A DNA stretch of 64,000 bases from Nocardia yamanashiensis NBRC 100130 (lineage in GTDB: Bacteria; Actinomycetota; Actinomycetes; Mycobacteriales; Mycobacteriaceae), in contig NZ_BDCD01000021.1 of NCBI RefSeq assembly GCF_001613325.1, forward strand, positions 186,001 through 250,000, read 5' to 3'. Below the pieces are notes generated by a model. That model worked only from the letters and a program-made list of their open reading frames with translations, was not told the DNA's origin and ran no database searches. Shown one piece after another: positions 27,772 to 48,111 of this stretch; the stretch's first letter is position 1; each line of letters opens with the position of its first letter. A program made the translations under genes and the position numbers.

Positions 27772-28533
27772 CTAGACGGGCAGCCGCCGGAAGATCGGGC
27801 GCGGCACGTGCCGCAGGATCGCCATCACGAAGCGGATGGGACCGGGGACCCAGACGATCTCCTTGCCCTTCTGCGACGCCGCCACGGCCATCGCCGCCAC
27901 GTCTTCCTTGTCGACGGTGAGCCCGTTCTCCTTGGCGTGCGCGGACAGCTTGGTCCGCACCATGCCGGGGCGAATCACGGTGACGCGCGGGCCGAACGGC
28001 GCCAGCGCCTCGCCGAGACCGAGGTAGAAGCCGTCCAGGCCGGCCTTGGTGGAGCCGTAGACGAAGTTGAAGCGGCGCACCCGCTCACCGGCGACCGAGG
28101 ACATGGCCAGGATCCGGCCGTACCCCTGCGCCTTCATCTTCTCGCCGAGCAGCACGCCCACGGAAACCGCGGCGGTGTAGTTGATCTCGGCCATCATGAC
28201 GGCCTTGCGCTGGTCCTGCCAGAAGATCTCGCCGTCGCCGTCGATGCCGAACGCGACCACCGCGATATCCACATCGCCGCTGGCCCACGCCTGCTCGATG
28301 ACCTTCGGATGGCTCTCGGTGTCGAGCGCGTCGAAGTCGACGACCTGCACCTCGGACGCGCCCGCCGCCTTCATGGTGGCGACGGCGTCCTCGCGCAGCG
28401 GATCACCCGGCAGCGCGGCCAGGATGACGCGCGCGGGGCCCTTCTTCAGGTACTCGGCGCAGATCGCGAGACCGATCTCCGAGGTGCCGCCCAGCAGCAG
28501 AATGGATTGCGGGTTCCCTACCGCATTGATCAC
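27772..28533 (-). CDS. dprE2: DPR 2'-keto reductase DprE2
   Basis: 253 residues from GTG 28533-28531, which overlaps the dprE1 TGA by four bases (GTGA), so the two are translationally coupled; the open frame extends further upstream only inside dprE1. A short-chain dehydrogenase: nucleotide-binding GGTSEIG near residue 15, and catalytic Ser and YxxxK visible in [22 protein letters not shown]. With DprE1 it epimerises decaprenyl-phospho-ribose to decaprenyl-phospho-arabinose, the only known arabinose donor in these bacteria. The C-terminus is hydrophobic and basic, consistent with membrane association. Confidence 0.95.
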
Positions 28534-30023
28534 TGGAGCTCCAGCCTTCTCGCCATGTCGGACATGAAAACGCCTGTGGGATCGACACTTCGGCGGATCT
28601 TGATCCACTCGTCGATCCGGGGGTACATCTTGTGGAAGGTCTCCGCGGTCGTCCGGGAATCCTTCGCGGTGTACAGCCGGCCGCCGAATTCCAGCACCCG
28701 CTTGTCGAGATTGGAGACCAGCTCGTTGAGACCCGGCTTGATCGGGAAGTCCACGCAGATGTTCCAGCCCGGCATCGGGAAGCTCAACGGAGCCGGGTTA
28801 CCCGGGCCGAACAGCTTGAAAACATTCAGTGCCGAGTAGTGGCCCGACGCCTGGATATCGATGATGATTCGCTTGAATTCATCGACCGCCTCGGTGGGAA
28901 CCACGAACTGGTACTGGAGGAAACCGTTGGAGCCGTAGCCCCGGTTCCACTCCGAGATCATGTCGAGCGGGTGATAGAACTGCGTCAGGTTCTGCACCTT
29001 GCCGGTGTAGTTGCCACCCATCGCGTAGTACGCCTCACCGACGGCCGACAGGGTCAGCTTGTTCATGGTGAAGTTCGGGAAGATATCCGGCACCGTCATG
29101 AGGTGCGGCGCATCGAATTTCAGCGGTCGCTTGCGCAGCTTCTTGGGCAACTCGTCCACCTTGGCCAGTCGGCCGCGAGTAATGGTGGCGCGCCCCAGCT
29201 TCGGCAGCGGGCTGATGACATCGAACCAGGCGCTGGAGTACGTGTAGTTGGCTTCACTACCGTCGCTGTGCGCAGCGATGGTCTCGTCCAGCGTGCTGGT
29301 CTTGACACCGTCGTTGATGAAGTACGCGGTCTCAGTCGGCGCCATTTCGATGGTGGCGCGCAGGATGATGCCGGTCAGGCCATTACCGCCGACCGTCGCC
29401 CAGAAGAGCTTGGCGTTCTTCTTCGGTCCGATCGTCTGCACCTTGCCGTCGGCGGTCAGCAGATCGATGGATCGGACGTGATTGCCGAACGAGCCCTCGG
29501 AGTGGTGGTTCTTGCCGTGGATATCGGAGGCGATGGCGCCGCCGATGGTGACCTGGCGGGTGCCCGGTAGCACCGGCACCCACAGCCCGAACGGCAGCGC
29601 CGCCTTCATGAGCTGGTCCAGGCTGACGCCACCGTCCACGTCGACCAGGCGGGAATCGCGGTCGATGCGGTGGATGCGGTTGAGCGCGGGCATGTCGATG
29701 ACCAGGCCGCCCGAGTTCTGCGCGTGGTCACCGTAGGAGCGGCCGAGGCCGCGCGCGATGACGCCGCGACGCAGGTGCGCGGGCTTGGAGTCGTTGTCCT
29801 CCGCGACCATGGCGACCGCCTTGGCGATCAGCTCGGGGTCGCTGGTGGAGAGGACTTCGGACGTGGTGGGTGCGGTGCGACCCCATCCGGTCAGCGTGCG
29901 AGTCCGCGTCGGCAGTTCGAAGGAGCCGGTCGACGCTGAGTCCGCACCATCGCTCGCCGGGCTAGCGGCGGCTTCCGTGGTGGTCTGAGCTTTCGTGGAC
30001 ATCGGGATAGAGGCTACAGGCAT
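28530..30023 (-). CDS. dprE1: Decaprenylphosphoryl-beta-D-ribose oxidase DprE1
   Basis: 497 residues if started at ATG 30023-30021; an alternative ATG at 30002 gives 490. The FAD-binding domain of the vanillyl-alcohol-oxidase type is at ~residues 85-260 ([26 protein letters not shown]), and the substrate domain follows. [11 protein letters not shown] holds the cysteine (codon at 28755-28757) equivalent to M. tuberculosis C387, the covalent target of benzothiazinones, so sensitivity to that class is predicted. The C-terminus DMARRLEL is conserved. It oxidises the 2'-hydroxyl of decaprenyl-phospho-ribose and hands the product to DprE2. Diverges from the GtrA-like gene across a very short gap. 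Confidence 0.95.
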
Positions 30024-30074
30024 AACCGTTCCGCGGCTTGTGTGCTTGGTCCAGGGCGCTACCCTCTGGAGTTT

Positions 30075-30530
30075 GTGACCGCGGAACCGCATCTGCCCCT
30101 CCCGCCCGAGCTGCCCCTCGTCGACGAGCCGGGTGGTACGGATGTCGATCTGAAGACCCAGATCATTCGGTTCGGCGTCACCGGCGGGCTATCCGCCATT
30201 GTGGACTTCGGGCTGTACACGCTGCTCTTCAAGGTTTTCGGCGTGCCGTTGCCGGTGGCGAAGGCCATCAGCTTCATCGCGGGGACGACGACGGCCTATC
30301 TGATCAATCGGCGCTGGACGTTCAAGGCCGAGCCGAGCCGGAAGCGGTTCATCGCCGTCGTCATTCTCTATGCGGTGACCTTCGCCATCCAGGTCGGCAT
30401 CAACCAGGTCTGTTACTACGCGTTGCCCGATGAATGGTGGCGGATCTGGCTGGCCTTCTGCGTCGCGCAGGGCACCGCCACCGTGATCAACTTCATCGTC
30501 CAGCGGGCTGTGATTTTCAAGATCCACTGA
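30075..30530 (+). CDS. GtrA-family membrane protein, Rv3789 homologue
   Basis: 151 residues from GTG 30075; another GTG at 30042 in frame would add 11 residues, and neither has an ideally spaced ribosome site. Four transmembrane helices (residues ~30-145) with [15 protein letters not shown], the [10 protein letters not shown] motif and FIVQRAVIF at the C-terminus are typical of GtrA. The mycobacterial homologue sits beside dprE1 and has been proposed to help flip decaprenyl-phospho-arabinose or anchor arabinan enzymes. Divergent orientation with dprE1 here. A bidirectional hairpin follows. Confidence 0.9.
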
Positions 30531-31206: not shown

Positions 31207-31567
31207 CGTGCACCCCTTGGGTAGCTGAACACCAGATGGAAGAGGCTCGGCCACGAATCTCGGCCATCCGAAATGCTATACGGTTTAACTATTTTCGTGT
31301 GGCGAATGCGTGAACCGTCGCATCGTCCCTGGTGAGGGGGCGGTCGACTGGCGAAGGTCCAAGCTTCCCGAGCGAGGATCCTCCCGGATGAAATCTTTCA
31401 CAAGGGACCTTCGTCGCTTAGCTATGGGGATGCTGCCGACCAGTTCGGGCACGGGGTCGGTGAGTTCCCTAGGGGGCGGGGCGTTTTCGCAATCCTGGAA
31501 AGTCCTTTTTGCATACTTTGTCCGGATGTTGCCGGGTGTCATCCCCCTAGCGAACGTCGATCATCAC
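31207..31567. other. 361-bp intergenic stretch
   Basis: Between the start of the flavin-binding protein gene and the 3' end of the glycine-rich secreted protein gene, both on the - strand. It should hold the promoter of the former. Short open frames exist on both strands (85 and 109 codons), but neither has a ribosome site or recognisable product. I see no strong hairpin or repeat. Confidence 0.5.
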
Positions 31568-32260
31568 TCACATGGGCGCGGAAATGGTGGCGAAGTATTG
31601 GACCGCGGCCAGCACCGCGACCGGCGCCGCCACCAGTAATTGACCCGCCACCGTGCCCAATGCGCCGACGGCCACGATGCCGCCCAGGCAGCCCGCCACC
31701 GCGGCGGGCAGGAATGGGCCGAACAGGCCGACGATGGTGCCGGCCGCCACCGTCGCGCCCGCGATGCCGCCGAGCACGCAGCCGACCGCCGCGCCGCCCA
31801 GCCCGCCGACCAGGGCGCCCATCGAAACACCCAGTCCGACGGTGCCGATCAGGCGATTCCAGGCGGCGGTCTCGCGCTGATACGGCGTCTGGAATCCCGC
31901 CGAATCCTCGAACGGCAGCGCGACAGGGGAGTAGACGGCGTGTTCGCGATCCAGCAGCGGGGTGAGGGTGGCGGTACGGCCGGTGATCTCGGCCGCGATC
32001 GGGAAGGTGAAATCGTCCACCCGGAAGGACATTTCGGCGCGCGCCAGTTCCCGGTGGCCGGCGGTCTCCAGGGTGAGCACGTCGTCGTGTAGCTCGATCG
32101 CGCCCGCATCGAGGGTGATGATGGCCGTATCGCCGATGGTGGTGGCGGTGAAGCCGATGCCGGGGCCGGCGGCTGTGCTCGGTTCGGGCGGGGCCGCCGT
32201 GGCGGTGGCGCAGACGCCCGCCGCGATCAGTGCGCCGAGGGCGATCGCTTTGATTCGCAT
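31568..32260 (-). CDS. Secreted protein with glycine-rich C-terminus, copy A
   Basis: 230 residues with GAGGG upstream of ATG. A cleavable signal peptide (residues 1-22, ending ATAAP) is followed by a beta-rich domain containing SFRVDDFTFPIAAEITG.TATLTP and the segment YSPVALPFED. From about residue 137 the protein is almost entirely Gly/Ala/Val with repeated small-residue patterns (MGALVGGLGGAAVGCVLGG), resembling glycine-zipper membrane-inserting segments. It is a clear paralogue of the protein at 47410-48111. It is the last gene of an operon with an SGNH hydrolase and a membrane protein, below a MarR operator. Function unknown; such proteins occur in Nocardia and relatives. Confidence 0.8.
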   Translation of the reverse strand: MRIKAIALGALIAAGVCATATAAPPEPSTAAGPGIGFTATTIGDTAIITLDAGAIELHDDVLTLETAGHRELARAEMSFRVDDFTFPIAAEITGRTATLTPLLDREHAVYSPVALPFEDSAGFQTPYQRETAAWNRLIGTVGLGVSMGALVGGLGGAAVGCVLGGIAGATVAAGTIVGLFGPFLPAAVAGCLGGIVAVGALGTVAGQLLVAAPVAVLAAVQYFATISAPM

Positions 32261-32270
32261 CGGTTTTCCC

Positions 32271-33083
32271 TCAGTCCAGCAGCGCGAGTTCGGCCACGAC
32301 GACCCGCGCCACGGCGATCTGCCCGGCGGGGGTGAGATGTACGCCGTCCGATTCGAACAGCCGGTGCTCGGGTGCCGGATGGGTGACGGTCAAGGTATCG
32401 ATCACGACTTCGGGCCGGGCGTCGAGCGCGGCCGCGGTCTCCTCGTGATCTTTTGCCCGCCAGCTGATTCCGTTCGCCCGGAACGGCGGGAACTCCGCGA
32501 TCAGCGCCTCGTCCATATCGGTCGGGGTCAGCCAGGCCCAGCGGGCGTCGCCGCCCTGGGCGCGCAGCAGCCCGAAATTGCGTGCGGTCTCGTCCGCGCT
32601 GACCACGCGCGGGCCGTCGGGGCCGAGGCGCTGCGCGTCGTTCCCGCCCAGCTGGCACAGCACCCAGTCGGGTCGATGGAAGCCGAGCGCGCCCGCGGAC
32701 TTGAGAACCTGCGTGGTGGTGGCTCCGGAAACGGCGAGATTGGTCAGCGTGATGCGGTCGCCGGGGCGGCGCAGTTCCAGCAGATGGCGCAGGACCTCGA
32801 ACCAGGACAGGCGATCCGCGGTGCTGCTCTCGCCGAGCGCCACCACGCGGGCGCCGGGGGCGAACGGCAGCCGATCCACCAGCTCGGCGAACTCCGGTTC
32901 GGTGAGCAGGTCGGCGGCCGCGGCGCGCACCTGGGCATCCAGCTCCGCGCGCAGCGCCCGGTACTCGTCGGCCTCCAAGCCGAACAGTGCGGCCAGGTGC
33001 GCTTCGTCGATTCCGTTCAAGTACGGCAGGGACAGTTCGGGCTTCTGGAAGCGGACGATCTTGGCGGTCAGATCGAGGTTCAT
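32271..33083 (-). CDS. SGNH/GDSL-type hydrolase
   Basis: 270 residues with AGGAG upstream of ATG. SGNH blocks are visible: block I as ALGESSTAD (GES in place of the usual GDS), a block II glycine in NLAVSGATT, block III LGGND, and block V DGVHLTPAG with the catalytic Asp and His. An N-terminal region of ~80 residues precedes block I and is predicted helical. No signal peptide is seen, so it is probably cytoplasmic. Esterase or lipase activity is inferred; the substrate is unknown. Middle gene of a three-gene operon: 33 bp after the membrane protein gene and 10 bp before the glycine-rich protein gene. Confidence 0.82.
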   Translation of the reverse strand: MNLDLTAKIVRFQKPELSLPYLNGIDEAHLAALFGLEADEYRALRAELDAQVRAAAADLLTEPEFAELVDRLPFAPGARVVALGESSTADRLSWFEVLRHLLELRRPGDRITLTNLAVSGATTTQVLKSAGALGFHRPDWVLCQLGGNDAQRLGPDGPRVVSADETARNFGLLRAQGGDARWAWLTPTDMDEALIAEFPPFRANGISWRAKDHEETAAALDARPEVVIDTLTVTHPAPEHRLFESDGVHLTPAGQIAVARVVVAELALLD

Positions 33084-33116
33084 GACTACTCCTGAATGGT
33101 GCTGTGGGGGAGGGAA

Positions 33117-33797
33117 TTACGCGCGGGAAAGCCGGAATCCGGCGACGATCAGCCACGCCATGCCGGTGAAGCGGGCGATGGGCAGCAGGACAGCGGCACC
33201 GGTGAAGGTCAGGGCGATGGTGGTCAGCATGGCAACGAACGCGATCCCCAACCCGATACGGATCAGCCACGGGCCGAGCATGTTCCGGGCCTGAGCGCCG
33301 ATGGCGATCCCGGCGATGAGCAGGCCGGTGGTCATCACATTGGCCGGGCCGCCGAGCAGGAAGGCGAGGGTGTGGACAGCGCGCACCGTGCTCAGGTCCG
33401 CGGTCACCTCGGGCACCGTGAGCACCCAGCTGACCGCGCCCGAGGCGAGCAGGAACACCGTCGCGAGTACGCCGCCGATGGTGGCGAGCGCCGTGCCGAA
33501 GTCGTCGCCATAGCGCCGCAGCCGGGTGACGGCCGCCGCCACGTAGAGGGCCAGTGGAATCGCGGCCGCATATTGCAGCACCGCGCCGGTCCGAACGGCA
33601 GCGGGGTGATCCCGGAAATAGACGAGCGCGTCTCCCGCCGTGCCGAACGGCGACGGAAACGGGCTCCCACCGGCGCGAACAGTGCTGATCACGAGTCCCG
33701 CGACGAACAGCCCGGCCGCCGCCGCACCGGGTGCGCCGAGCGGTGGTTCGAGGGAGCGGGCGGGGCGTTCGAGCGGGGATGCGGCTGTGATGGCCAT
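33117..33797 (-). CDS. Six-helix membrane protein of unknown function
   Basis: 226 residues with about six hydrophobic segments (approximate residues 22-42, 67-90, 98-125, 135-160, 168-190, 195-220). A loop after the first helix holds GGSPFPSPFGTAGDALVYFRDHP. The pattern is reminiscent of DUF4386-type proteins, but I cannot confirm that. It is the first gene of the - strand operon, and its start is 22 bp from a palindrome shared with the divergent marR gene, so it is the most direct target of that repressor. Confidence 0.7.
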   Translation of the reverse strand: MAITAASPLERPARSLEPPLGAPGAAAAGLFVAGLVISTVRAGGSPFPSPFGTAGDALVYFRDHPAAVRTGAVLQYAAAIPLALYVAAAVTRLRRYGDDFGTALATIGGVLATVFLLASGAVSWVLTVPEVTADLSTVRAVHTLAFLLGGPANVMTTGLLIAGIAIGAQARNMLGPWLIRIGLGIAFVAMLTTIALTFTGAAVLLPIARFTGMAWLIVAGFRLSRA

Positions 33798-33818
33798 GGC
33801 TATCCATTCTCAGAAGTG

Positions 33819-33842
33819 AATCGTTCTGTTGAGTGAACGATT
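33819..33842. promoter_or_regulatory. Probable MarR operator
   Basis: Perfect inverted repeat AATCGTTC (33819-33826) and GAACGATT (33835-33842) with an eight-base spacer, placed between the divergent membrane-protein operon (start 33797) and the marR gene. Size and place fit a MarR dimer site controlling both directions. Confidence 0.75.
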
Positions 33843-33864
33843 TCCTGATGTGTACGATAATCCC

Positions 33865-34425
33865 GTGACCGAAGCTGAGCAAGAGGGGGTCCGGAACCCG
33901 CATCCGGAGCGGCCGGCCTGGCTGCCGCCGGTGGAACCGGGTGCGCCGCAACCGGATCGGCCTATGCGCGCGGCGGCCTTCCAGCTCGCGCAGCTCGGGG
34001 GACTCGCGGCGCAGCGGTTCGCCGAACGCGTCGCGGAAATCGGGCTCACGCCACCGGAAGTCGGGATTCTGCGGATGATCGCCACCGAGCCGGGGCGTAG
34101 TCAGCGCTCGCTCGCGGCTGAACTAGGAGTGGTTCCGAGCCGGGTGGTCGCTCTCATCGATCCGCTGGATAAGCAGGGGCTGATCGAACGTCGTCGGAGC
34201 GCCACCGATCGGCGTAATCATGAGCTGCATCTGACGCCGGAAGGTGGCAAGAAGCTCGGCAGCCTGGCCGCTGTGGCGTTGGCTCATGAAGCCGCACTCT
34301 TCGAAAGTCTCACCGATACCGAATACGATCAGTTCGCGGCGCTGCTCACCAAACTTGCTGCGGCGCAGCAGCTCACGCCGGGTGTGCACCCCGGATATCG
34401 CACCCTGGGGGATGAATCGAAATAG
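33865..34425 (+). CDS. MarR-family transcriptional regulator
   Basis: 186 residues from GTG 33865; alternatives are GTG 33850 and TTG 33829, but the latter lies inside the operator palindrome. The winged-helix domain spans ~residues 50-125: LTPPEVGILRMIATEPGRSQRSLAAELGVVPSRVVALIDPLDKQGLIERRRS followed by the wing DRRNHELHLTPEG. A proline-rich N-terminal extension precedes the dimerisation helix. It likely represses itself and the divergent membrane protein/SGNH/secreted protein operon through the palindrome at 33819-33842. The ligand is unknown, commonly a phenolic or lipophilic compound in this family. Confidence 0.85.
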   Translation: MTEAEQEGVRNPHPERPAWLPPVEPGAPQPDRPMRAAAFQLAQLGGLAAQRFAERVAEIGLTPPEVGILRMIATEPGRSQRSLAAELGVVPSRVVALIDPLDKQGLIERRRSATDRRNHELHLTPEGGKKLGSLAAVALAHEAALFESLTDTEYDQFAALLTKLAAAQQLTPGVHPGYRTLGDESK

Positions 34426-34544
34426 TGGGGTCGTTTCGCCTGCCGTCCCCGACTGTGGTCCCCCAGTTGGGAGCCGTTACCTCGCCTTCCGGCGTCGTTC
34501 CGGCCGTTGTCGACTTTTCGAGCCGAGGCAACCGGGGAGGGGGG

Positions 34545-35201
34545 TCAGCGGGCTCGGCGGTTCAGGCGGGGTTGGTCGAGGACGTAGATGGTGCCTCGGC
34601 CTAGGCGGACTATGCCCAGTTCTTCCAGGTCGCGGAGGACTTTGTTGGCGGTGGCGCGGGTGGTGCCGGCCATGGAGGCTAGGTCTTCCTGAGTGAGGCG
34701 GACTTCGGGTGGGGCGCCGTTCTCGTCTCCGTAGACGCGGGCCAGGTGGGCCAGGCGGCGGAGGACGCGGGTTTCCACGGGGAGGTAGAGGGCTTCCAGG
34801 ACGGCGGCGGAGAGGCGGCGGACCTGGGCCGCCAAGGACGTCGTGAGGAAGCGTTCCACTTGGGGGTGTTCGGCGCGGAGGCGTTCGAGCTGGGTGCGGT
34901 TGAGGGTGAGGGTCTGGGCGTCGGTGACGGCGACGATGGTGGCGGTGCGGCGGGCGTCGGGGCTCAAAAGCGCTTGTTCGCCGAACATTTCGCCGGGGCC
35001 GAGGATGGTGAGGGTGGCGGTGTGGCCCAGGGGCGTGGTCACCCGGACCACCAGGCGGCCGGAGGTGATGAGGTGGACGCAGTCGCCGGGGTCGCCTTCG
35101 TGGCAGACGATGTCGCGGCGGCGGAACTTGCGCGGCGTGCAGGCGGCGATGAACTGGCGGCGTTCCTGGGGTGAAAGGCCTTCCAGCAGTTCGAATTCCA
35201 T
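34545..35201 (-). CDS. Crp/Fnr-family transcriptional regulator
   Basis: 218 residues, GGGAGG upstream of ATG. The cyclic-nucleotide-binding beta-barrel covers residues ~1-115, with the phosphate-binding cassette-like GPGEMFGEQALLSPDARRTATIVA (a Glu and paired Arg present). The C-terminal helix-turn-helix is in LTQEDLASMAGTTRATANKVLRDLEELGIV. It starts 16 bp after a class III nucleotide cyclase gene in the same operon, which strongly suggests it is regulated by that enzyme's product. A perfect Crp-type palindrome is present elsewhere in the window (48317-48332). Confidence 0.88.
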   Translation of the reverse strand: MEFELLEGLSPQERRQFIAACTPRKFRRRDIVCHEGDPGDCVHLITSGRLVVRVTTPLGHTATLTILGPGEMFGEQALLSPDARRTATIVAVTDAQTLTLNRTQLERLRAEHPQVERFLTTSLAAQVRRLSAAVLEALYLPVETRVLRRLAHLARVYGDENGAPPEVRLTQEDLASMAGTTRATANKVLRDLEELGIVRLGRGTIYVLDQPRLNRRAR

Positions 35202-35217
35202 TACGGGTGTCCTCCCT

Positions 35218-37203
35218 TCACCGCAGGGCCGTGAGGCGGTACACGGTTACCGGGCGGCTCTTGCCCTTGATGTCGAAGTCGCCCAGGTTCTCCACCTCGG
35301 CTCGGGGGCCCAGGCGGTGCCTGGTCAGCGGGCCCACCACCACCGTGCCGGGTTCGGCCAAACCCTCCAGGCGGGCAGCGAGATTGGTGGTGTCGCCGAT
35401 GGCGGTGAAGTTGCGCATCTCGCGGGCGCCGACATTGCCGACGATGGCGGGGCCGGTGTTCACGCCCACCCGGAACATGGGCCATTCGCCGTGGGCGGTT
35501 TCGCGGACGGCGGCGGTCGCGCGTTGCAGGGCCAGGCCGGCTCGGGCCGCGCGCAGGGCGTGATCGTGTTGGCGCACCGGGGCATTGAAGATCGCCATCA
35601 CCGCGTCGCCGACGAACTGCACCACGGTGCCGCCCTCGGCGAGGATCTCGGGGACGATCGCGCCGTAGTAGGTGTTGAGCATGCGCATGACCTGTACCGG
35701 TCCGGCCTTCTCCGCGAACGGTGTGTAACCGCGCAGGTCCGCCATGAGCACGCTGACCTCGTGCACCTCGCCGCCCAGTCCGGCTTGCGAGGGGTCGGCC
35801 AATAGTGCGGTCGCGACCTGTGGGGACATGTACGAGCGGAACAGGCCGTCCAGTTGCTGGTACAGCCGGGCGTTCTCCAGGACCACCGAGGCCTGGGCGG
35901 CGAACGATCGCGCCACCGCGTGCTCCGCCGGGCCCAGCGTTCCGACGGGTGGGCGGGCCAGTTCCAGGATGCCGGTCTGGATTCCCTTGACCAGCAGCGG
36001 AAATGCGAACGCGGCCGGATTGGGGGAACCGCCGTCGGCGAAGACCAGGTGGCCGCCGCGCATGACGCCGATCCGGACCACGTCCTGGTCGAAGGCGAAG
36101 CCGGCCAGGCGTTGAATCTCGGCGAGCAGCTGGTTCTCGCCGCGAATCACGTTGGCGCGCTCGCCGACCGCCACCAGCGCGCCCAGTCGCCGCACCTGCT
36201 CGCGTTCGTTGCCGAGAGCTTGGGCGGCCTGCTGCAGGACGGCCACCTGGCGTTCGGTGAGGCCGAAACGGCGAGCCAGCTGCTGGGCGGCGGGGCCGAG
36301 CGGATCTTCGGCCGCGATGCCGCCGGTGGCGCGCTGGTCCAGGGCCGACACCATTTCCTCCAGCGCGCGGGCGTAATCGCGCTGAATGGCGGCGAGGGTG
36401 CTGCGCTGGGTGATGCTGTCGAACAGGCCGCGGGCGGAGCCTTCGCGGCGGAAGCTGAGGTGGGCGCTGACCGCGATCAGGACGAAGGCGACGCCCAGCA
36501 GGACGTGCCACTCCCACCAGGACACCCGCCAGCTGCGGCCGAAGCCGACGGCGAAGAGGGCCTCGGCGAGCAGGATGAACGCGGTGAGTACCGACAGCAG
36601 GACCGTGGCCCGGTTGCGCAGGTAGATCCAGATGTAGCAACCGGCCGCGACCAGGTAGCAGGCCGCGCCGACGAAAGCCGCGGCGATCAGCGGGCCCTGG
36701 GCCTCCGACGGGTCGGGGACCGCGTCGAAGGGCGGCACCCTGGTCAGGGACAGCAGTGCCCAGACCGTCATCAAGGTGAGAGGCAGAGCGGCAAGGAGTT
36801 CGGTGAACCGGTGCGCCCGCGCGGTGGGCCCGTATTCCACCACCGAAGCCAATGCCGCCAGCCCGCCCAGCACCATACCGACCGGAACCGCAACCGTGAA
36901 GCCCACGTTCGGAGTCGACAGGATGACCCCGGGGGTGGCCAGCGCGTGCAGGCCCAGGAAACCCGAATTCAGCTGGAACACCAGGGAAACCAGGATCAGG
37001 CGCATATCCCGGTGGGCGCGGGCCGCGCGCAGCAGCAGGATGCCCAGCGCCAGCGAGACCGCGGCCGCACCGAGGATCAACCAGAAATGCAGGCCGCGAT
37101 GCTGGAACTCGTGGTCGAGATCCGGATGCGACACCAACAGCCAAAGACCCGCCGCGGGCAGTGCCACATGCACCGCCCACAGCGCGACCCGAATCGCCGA
37201 CAT
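35218..37203 (-). CDS. Membrane-bound class III adenylate/guanylate cyclase with GAF-like domain
   Basis: 661 residues, GGGGGAGA upstream of ATG. About eight N-terminal transmembrane helices (residues ~1-250), then a linker, a GAF-like domain (~residues 320-445) and a C-terminal class III catalytic domain (~470-640). Metal-binding aspartates are in LMADLRGYTPF and FVGDAVMAIF; the transition-state Asn and Arg are in TTNLAARLE. At the purine-selecting sites it has Gln where most adenylate cyclases have Lys (VVQFVGD) and Thr in the second position (FTAIGDTTN), a class IIIb-like pattern, so cAMP is likely but not certain. It sits between a molybdopterin oxidoreductase gene and a Crp-family gene. 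Confidence 0.86.
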   Translation of the reverse strand: MSAIRVALWAVHVALPAAGLWLLVSHPDLDHEFQHRGLHFWLILGAAAVSLALGILLLRAARAHRDMRLILVSLVFQLNSGFLGLHALATPGVILSTPNVGFTVAVPVGMVLGGLAALASVVEYGPTARAHRFTELLAALPLTLMTVWALLSLTRVPPFDAVPDPSEAQGPLIAAAFVGAACYLVAAGCYIWIYLRNRATVLLSVLTAFILLAEALFAVGFGRSWRVSWWEWHVLLGVAFVLIAVSAHLSFRREGSARGLFDSITQRSTLAAIQRDYARALEEMVSALDQRATGGIAAEDPLGPAAQQLARRFGLTERQVAVLQQAAQALGNEREQVRRLGALVAVGERANVIRGENQLLAEIQRLAGFAFDQDVVRIGVMRGGHLVFADGGSPNPAAFAFPLLVKGIQTGILELARPPVGTLGPAEHAVARSFAAQASVVLENARLYQQLDGLFRSYMSPQVATALLADPSQAGLGGEVHEVSVLMADLRGYTPFAEKAGPVQVMRMLNTYYGAIVPEILAEGGTVVQFVGDAVMAIFNAPVRQHDHALRAARAGLALQRATAAVRETAHGEWPMFRVGVNTGPAIVGNVGAREMRNFTAIGDTTNLAARLEGLAEPGTVVVGPLTRHRLGPRAEVENLGDFDIKGKSRPVTVYRLTALR

Positions 37204-47409: not shown

Positions 47410-48111
47410 TTACTTGGCCGGGGCGGTGAAGGGCTGGTTGATGGTGGTGAAGTACTGCACGGCGGCGGCGATCGCGACCGGGGCGGTCACGAAGATCTGA
47501 CCGGCCAGCACACCCAGGAAGCCGACGGCGGCGGCACCGGCGATGCAACCACCGATCGGGCCCAGGCCGAACAGGGTGGCCAGCGCGCCGGTGGCGACGA
47601 CGCCGAGGGCCGCACCCGCGACACAGCCGAGGGCCGCGCCGCCGATACCACCGACCAGGGTGCCGATGGTGGCGCCCATGGAGATGGTGTCCTTCAGGCG
47701 GTTCCAGGCGGCCTGCTCACGGTCGTACTCGTTCTTCCAGGGAGCCTGGTTCTCGTACGGCAGGGCGACGGGCTTGTAGACGGCGTGCGCCTCGTCGTAC
47801 TGCGGGGTCAGGGTGGCGGTGTTGCCGGCGATCTCGGCGGCGATCGGGAACTCGAAGTCGTCGACGCGGAACTTCAGCTCGGTGCCGGCGACGGTGGTGC
47901 CGTTGGCGGCCTGGATCTTGAAGACGCCGTTGTCGTTGACCAGCGAGCCGACGTCGGTCCGGATGACGACCTGGCCGTTCTCGGACTGGGTGGCGGCGTA
48001 GTTGACGGCGCCGTTGTCGGCCGCGGCCGGGGCGGCGTTCACGGTGCCGGCGGTGACGCCCATGGCAGCGATCAGCAGCGCCGAGGTAGCGGCGAATTTC
48101 CTCATCAGCAT
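47410..48111 (-). CDS. Secreted protein with glycine-rich C-terminus, copy B
   Basis: 233 residues from ATG 48111-48109 (MLMRKFAATS) with GAGG upstream; ATG 48105 is an alternative. Signal peptide ends near NAAPA. The mature domain has the same core as copy A: FRVDDFEFPIAAEIAGNTATLTP, HAVYKPVALPYE and AAWNRL. A Gly/Ala-rich hydrophobic region from ~residue 148 follows (GATIGTLVGGIGGAALGCVAG), with an AAVQYFTTI tail also shared with copy A (AAVQYFATI). The long upstream region and terminator suggest a stand-alone gene. Membrane-inserting or surface-layer function is possible, but nothing in the sequence fixes it. Confidence 0.8.
   Translation of the reverse strand: MLMRKFAATSALLIAAMGVTAGTVNAAPAAADNGAVNYAATQSENGQVVIRTDVGSLVNDNGVFKIQAANGTTVAGTELKFRVDDFEFPIAAEIAGNTATLTPQYDEAHAVYKPVALPYENQAPWKNEYDREQAAWNRLKDTISMGATIGTLVGGIGGAALGCVAGAALGVVATGALATLFGLGPIGGCIAGAAAVGFLGVLAGQIFVTAPVAIAAAVQYFTTINQPFTAPAK

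Follow-up and report, generated by a model that had tools for sequence, protein, structure and literature searches.

A horizontally exchanged MarR-linked cassette with an SGNH hydrolase and an unnamed membrane protein in Nocardia and other actinobacteria

Operons in which a hydrolase stands under the control of a MarR-type regulator are a known kind. The operon described here is set apart by a membrane protein of an unnamed family and by a secreted protein that is a Nocardia-specific addition; the open-licence literature that we searched held neither a description of this operon nor an experiment on any of its members. The locus lies in a stretch of 64,000 nucleotides of Nocardia yamanashiensis DNA (the window).

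A cassette inserted as a unit

Three genes follow one another on the minus strand: TM (33117-33797), encoding a membrane protein, SGNH (32271-33083), encoding a hydrolase of the SGNH/GDSL family, and SEC (31568-32260), encoding a secreted protein. The gaps between them are only 33 nt (TM-SGNH) and 10 nt (SGNH-SEC), and a marR gene (33865-34425) diverges from them on the plus strand. A preliminary description of this DNA had proposed just such a three-gene operon opposite a divergent marR; its positions were confirmed, and the operon is strongly supported by the conservation of the neighbourhood. Across all four genes dN/dS relative to three relatives is 0.14-0.45, which indicates purifying selection. 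Scans of the locus for terminators and for sigma-70 consensus promoters gave nothing usable.

The extent of the unit is revealed by genomes that do not have it at this site. In three Nocardia genomes (L199, L200 and L201) the flanking PNPOx and Crp genes are direct neighbours, about 360-380 nt apart, and synteny extends to the other genes around them (GtrA, DprE1, DprE2, cyclase); in N. inohanensis (L057) the four genes are present, arranged as in the window. Homology with L200 and L201, both empty at this site, runs out at about 31551, 17 nt short of the stop codon of SEC, and this end point together with the empty sites identifies exactly the four genes as the inserted unit. Thus marR, TM, SGNH and SEC constitute one insertion, and the actual unit (about 31552-34544) is wider than the one first described, since it includes marR. 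No integrase gene was seen between the flanks.

The surroundings of the insertion site have some features of their own. It is adjoined by DprE1/DprE2 and a GtrA-like gene of the arabinogalactan pathway (27772-30530), which are ordinary and syntenic in relatives. On the other side (34545-37203) a Crp/Fnr regulator adjoins a protein in which class III nucleotide-cyclase motifs were recognized by inspection; the corresponding genes of three relatives have an extra few hundred bases in their middle.

Beyond the cassette the neighbours vary from genome to genome, and G028, a genome in which this site is empty, carries a cassette of its own on a different contig. The empty sites and the changing flanks reveal movement as a unit between actinobacteria, and the phylogenetic tree of SGNH, in which no fewer than four switches between Nocardia and other taxa are needed, is consistent with several transfers. 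Spread on plasmids was considered and dismissed, a single Streptomyces plasmid having been found with the marR-TM-SGNH set. In two Nocardia genomes the cassette has decayed: one has a truncated SGNH beside a truncated marR (L025/L054), and the other an SGNH with an in-frame stop (L023/L052).

The regulator and its operator

The product of marR has a Pfam match to MarR_2 (PF12802, 4e-13) and falls below the cut-off of every named NCBIfam equivalog. The nearest solved regulator is CouR, with a profile match of 1e-24 that reflects resemblance at the family level only; CouR has been described as responding to p-coumaroyl-CoA (PMC4737184). The idea that the cassette is a known defence system was dismissed, since PADLOC gave no real match to its defence families, the resemblance of MarR to CasR/CARF models being weak and limited to a generic HTH.

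The palindrome that had been noticed between TM and marR is indeed a perfect 24-mer, AATCGTTC-TGTTGAGT-GAACGATT, located at 33819-33842, 22 nt upstream of the TM start codon. Allowing up to three mismatches, 0.07 sites of the pattern AATCGTTC-N8-GAACGATT are expected in the window; one was found, and it has 0 mismatches. The exact 24-mer is present in a single copy in the whole 9.1 Mb genome, where there are just two further near-copies, both asymmetric and with 2 mismatches each; neither is credible, and a wider MarR regulon was accordingly dismissed. When regions divergent from marR were compared with 1094 random windows taken from the same loci, AATCRTTC-N8-GAAYGATT with 0-3 mismatches was found in 53 of 58 of the former and in 2 of the controls. 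A palindrome arisen by chance could be dismissed on the basis of this footprint across loci and of the low expectation in the window. Part of the conservation of the operator is due to shared descent; the element persists in families whose hydrolases are just 40-50% identical. The putative control of the operon by MarR, already proposed in the preliminary description, is thus strongly supported by the phylogenetic footprint of the operator and by the conservation of its neighbourhood.

Directly downstream of the operator, and before GTG 33865, eight Nocardia loci share an aligned TACGATA element (TACGAT at 33853-33858, plus strand) that resembles a -10 element of marR and was missed by the sigma-70 consensus scan. 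Two of the relatives among these eight loci have GGG in place of the upstream in-frame GTG at 33850, and TACGATA is conserved there; for these reasons GTG 33865 is the most likely start codon of marR. Longer open reading frames from 33850 or 33829 are possible. The marR transcript may, we infer, be leaderless, and predicted binding of MarR at the operator would block both promoters.

In its divergent winged-helix gene and in the conserved palindrome of the shared promoter region, the cassette resembles the MarR-controlled divergent operons of the CouR, SlyA, MexR and HpaR type; it differs from them in its target genes and operator sequence, and presumably in its ligand. A closer relative is a sister operon of Nocardia (L210-L219), in which a homologous marR diverges from homologous TM and SDR genes and which has AATCGTT-type half-sites. 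This sister operon, however, is without the hydrolase, and its half-sites are closer together (AATCGTTAC-N5-GTAATCATT-like).

The hydrolase, the membrane protein and the secreted protein

The SGNH product matches Lipase_GDSL_2 (PF13472) at 3e-11, above the Pfam cut-off. A GDS(L) motif at the nucleophile is typical of the SGNH/GDSL family and lies outside its four catalytic residues. Here, as had been noted, the motif reads GES in place of GDS; its Glu is kept in 90% of the hydrolase family, and the remote members L053 and L055 have GDS. The catalytic set itself (block I Ser, block II Gly, block III Asn and the block V Asp-x-x-His) is complete, with Ser86, Gly120, Asn148, Asp246 and His249 kept in 95-100% of 82 relatives. 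The assignment therefore stands, because the catalytic residues are intact and the Pfam cut-off is passed. Inspection found no signal peptide, in agreement with the intracellular location first suggested, and a cytosolic hydrolase that is probably active is supported. Among solved structures the nearest to the SGNH profile are of the TesA thioesterase/lysophospholipase type. Thioesterase I/lysophospholipase L1 (TesA) shares with SGNH the PF13472 domain and the four intact blocks, but SGNH is cytosolic by prediction, has GES for GDS and an N-terminal extension of ~75 residues, and lies in a fixed operon with marR and TM. As with control by MarR, the enzyme class of the hydrolase is supported.

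The six helices of the membrane protein, predicted in the preliminary description, are long and well modelled (mean pLDDT 87), and among 48 distinct relatives P81, G108-G109, W124, G149-G150, P206, R209 and W215 are invariant. The alignment has no conserved histidines, and TM has neither a catalytic signature nor a known relative: 12 members scanned against Pfam gave nothing above cut-off, NCBIfam has no family for it, and of the structural comparisons with the PDB, Foldseek returned nothing with E under 0.001 and VIA-align only helix-bundle look-alikes. Identity with DUF2306 or DUF6220 was dismissed (hhalign probability 0.2 for both), as was identity with DUF4386, there being no Pfam family for TM at all.

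The secreted protein has a Sec-type signal peptide, recognized by inspection, followed by a beta domain and by two glycine-rich hydrophobic helices with the invariant Cys161 and Cys191, and it thus conforms to the secreted, glycine-zipper-like protein that had been described. It has no Pfam match above cut-off, no NCBIfam family and no sequence match in the PDB, and its structural model is poor (mean pLDDT 57). The small heat shock/CS fold is a candidate for the beta domain, with Z 4-6 over some 60 residues of that model. SEC relatives are present in 98 of 98 Nocardia genomes tested, with 1-23 copies each, mostly in genomes without the cassette, and in 20 of 31 sampled genera of the family. 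The cassette copies separate from the free paralogues in the tree (support 95/92) and so, on this phylogeny, form one branch of a Nocardia-wide secreted family. One free-standing paralogue, of the same family without a Pfam model, lies in the window itself (47410-48111, minus strand). Identification of SEC with the antigen NFA49590 was dismissed, since the latter is described as an MspA-family porin, apparently another family. Within cassettes SEC occurs in nine Nocardia loci only, where it takes the 3' place; it is a Nocardia-specific addition outside the cassette core.

These features could be read to mean that SEC is a secreted, membrane-inserting effector aimed at competitors, TM providing self-protection and SGNH serving as the processing enzyme. 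The signal peptide, the invariant cysteines and the two glycine-zipper-like helices would suit such a role, and alpha-pore-forming proteins are among the top structural matches of SEC, although these matches (Z 6.5, with a model pLDDT of 57) fall below the level that the tool regards as meaningful. However, in most genomes TM and SGNH are unaccompanied by SEC and are thus independent of it, and the SEC family is carried, mostly without the cassette, by every Nocardia genome tested. We consider an effector role very improbable.

Partner genes and possible function

SGNH relatives (E <= 0.001) were found in 25 of 98 Nocardia genomes, about 17 of them with strong matches. When the other three proteins were sought at these loci by tblastn, marR was present at most, TM at many and SEC at several, in the same order; 79 more loci came from the scanned genomes of bacteria and archaea. 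Streptomyces lavendulae CCM 3239 is among the carriers of a copy (L108). The 84 hydrolase loci sorted by architecture, using profiles on all six frames, include 60 with marR beside SGNH and 50 with TM. The expectation that the three genes would co-occur elsewhere was thus borne out by neighbourhood conservation, with SEC limited to its nine Nocardia loci. Across the Actinomycetota the order is marR <-> [SDR]-TM-SGNH-[NAD(P)H-binding], the optional genes being in brackets. The commonest forms are marR<->TM-SGNH and marR<->SDR-TM-SGNH(-NAD(P)H-binding), and marR<->TM-SGNH-SEC occurs in Nocardia only. The copy in the window has neither the SDR nor the NAD(P)H-binding gene, so that here the hydrolase step alone is left.

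Outside these arrangements the hydrolase keeps other company. In ten Bacillota loci (Paenibacillus, Cohnella, Brevibacillus) a two-component system replaces marR, and DUF6220 and/or DUF2306 proteins mostly stand where TM would be. In eight of the Paenibacillaceae loci (L095, L097, L101, L104, L105, L113, L114 and L127) the two-component system is divergent from DUF6220, SGNH, NAD(P)H-binding and/or DUF2306 genes. The DUF2306 and DUF6220 proteins and PraC are, like TM, small multi-helix membrane proteins, found in the Paenibacillaceae form beside the same hydrolase, but profile comparison does not relate them to TM in sequence. An epoxidation depends on a fungal DUF2306 protein, and PraC belongs to pramanicin biosynthesis (PMC12895699). 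A Rhizobium plasmid has an SGNH and NAD(P)H-binding pair adjoining a TetR gene. In one Nocardia locus (L045, 6732-11348) genes for an MFS efflux pump of the DHA2/EmrB type, a SnoaL-like protein, marR, SGNH, TM and SDR stand head to tail, and this marR belongs to a different subfamily; an efflux gene adjoins just a minority of loci.

In two Nocardia lineages (L084/L087 and L072/L075) a gene for an aromatic prenyltransferase of the PTase_Orf2 family lies ~1.1 kb or less from the cassette, on different sides (L084, 1769-2674; L087, 1748-2653; L072, 6721-7623; L075, 6793-7695); the L084 protein matches PF11468 at 2e-61. This proximity in two separate arrangements, and the DUF2306 protein of the Bacillota form with its fungal counterpart needed for an epoxidation, would fit a tailoring role in the organism's own specialized metabolism, in which the hydrolase and the SDR would complete a lipophilic product or set it free, and MarR would tie them to a pathway intermediate. 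Yet the prenyltransferase cluster is found in these lineages only, most loci have no conserved neighbours outside the operon, and the window copy sits between the arabinogalactan locus and the Crp gene with nothing biosynthetic inserted alongside it. Such tailoring is in our judgement improbable.

The preliminary description had suggested that the genes may serve envelope modification or membrane stress. In that case MarR would sense membrane-damaging compounds, the hydrolase would trim acyl groups of membrane lipid precursors at the inner face, and TM and SEC would strengthen the envelope or alter it. The sequences of TM and SEC mark them as membrane-active, the hydrolase profile comes nearest to TesA-type structures, and the regulator's place in the Paenibacillaceae is taken by a two-component system, all of which would accord with this proposal. 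Nevertheless, the genes that accompany the core in different phyla encode soluble oxidoreductases rather than lipid enzymes, SEC is limited to its nine Nocardia loci, and so sporadic a distribution, with strong matches in about 17 of the 98 Nocardia genomes, argues against a housekeeping envelope function. We regard an envelope role as rather unlikely.

The oxidoreductases of the wider family and the single Nocardia drug-efflux pump of the MFS type point more to the handling of a lipophilic compound than to the envelope. A small-molecule reading is also suggested by CouR as the nearest regulator and by the DUF2306 proteins of the Bacillota form. We give about an even chance to the view that the cassette is a MarR-derepressed, horizontally exchanged module for the detoxification or processing of a lipophilic ester-like compound. 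In such a scheme, a MarR dimer on the palindrome, which overlaps the marR promoter region, would repress transcription in both directions until released by a lipophilic small molecule or by a CoA or acyl derivative of one. The induced cytosolic SGNH would then cleave an ester or thioester of the compound itself or of a lipid to which it is attached, and in most relatives the SDR and/or NAD(P)H-binding partners would oxidize or reduce the product. TM, at the inner membrane with the enzymes, might present, export or shield the hydrophobic substrate, and in some Nocardia a membrane-active SEC would be co-induced and act in the outer envelope. Against the scheme speak the absence of the SDR and NAD(P)H-binding genes from the window's operon, the want of a catalytic signature or known relative of TM, the small share of loci with an adjoining efflux gene and the merely family-level likeness of MarR to CouR. 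A bolder extension of this scheme, which we think unlikely, is that TM represents an unrecognized family whose members are membrane partners of cytosolic SDR/SGNH enzymes and with them process small molecules dissolved in the membrane, and that in Nocardia the co-induced secreted protein carries the process across the envelope, so that detoxification would be inducible and span two membranes.

Whatever its substrate, this is a widespread, recurring and apparently undescribed operon that ties an unannotated membrane-protein family to a fixed set of hydrolase and oxidoreductase genes. Its operator is sufficiently conserved for immediate use in a reporter with which to find the inducer. The cassette also provides the first genetic context for a large family of secreted proteins that is present in every Nocardia genome tested.
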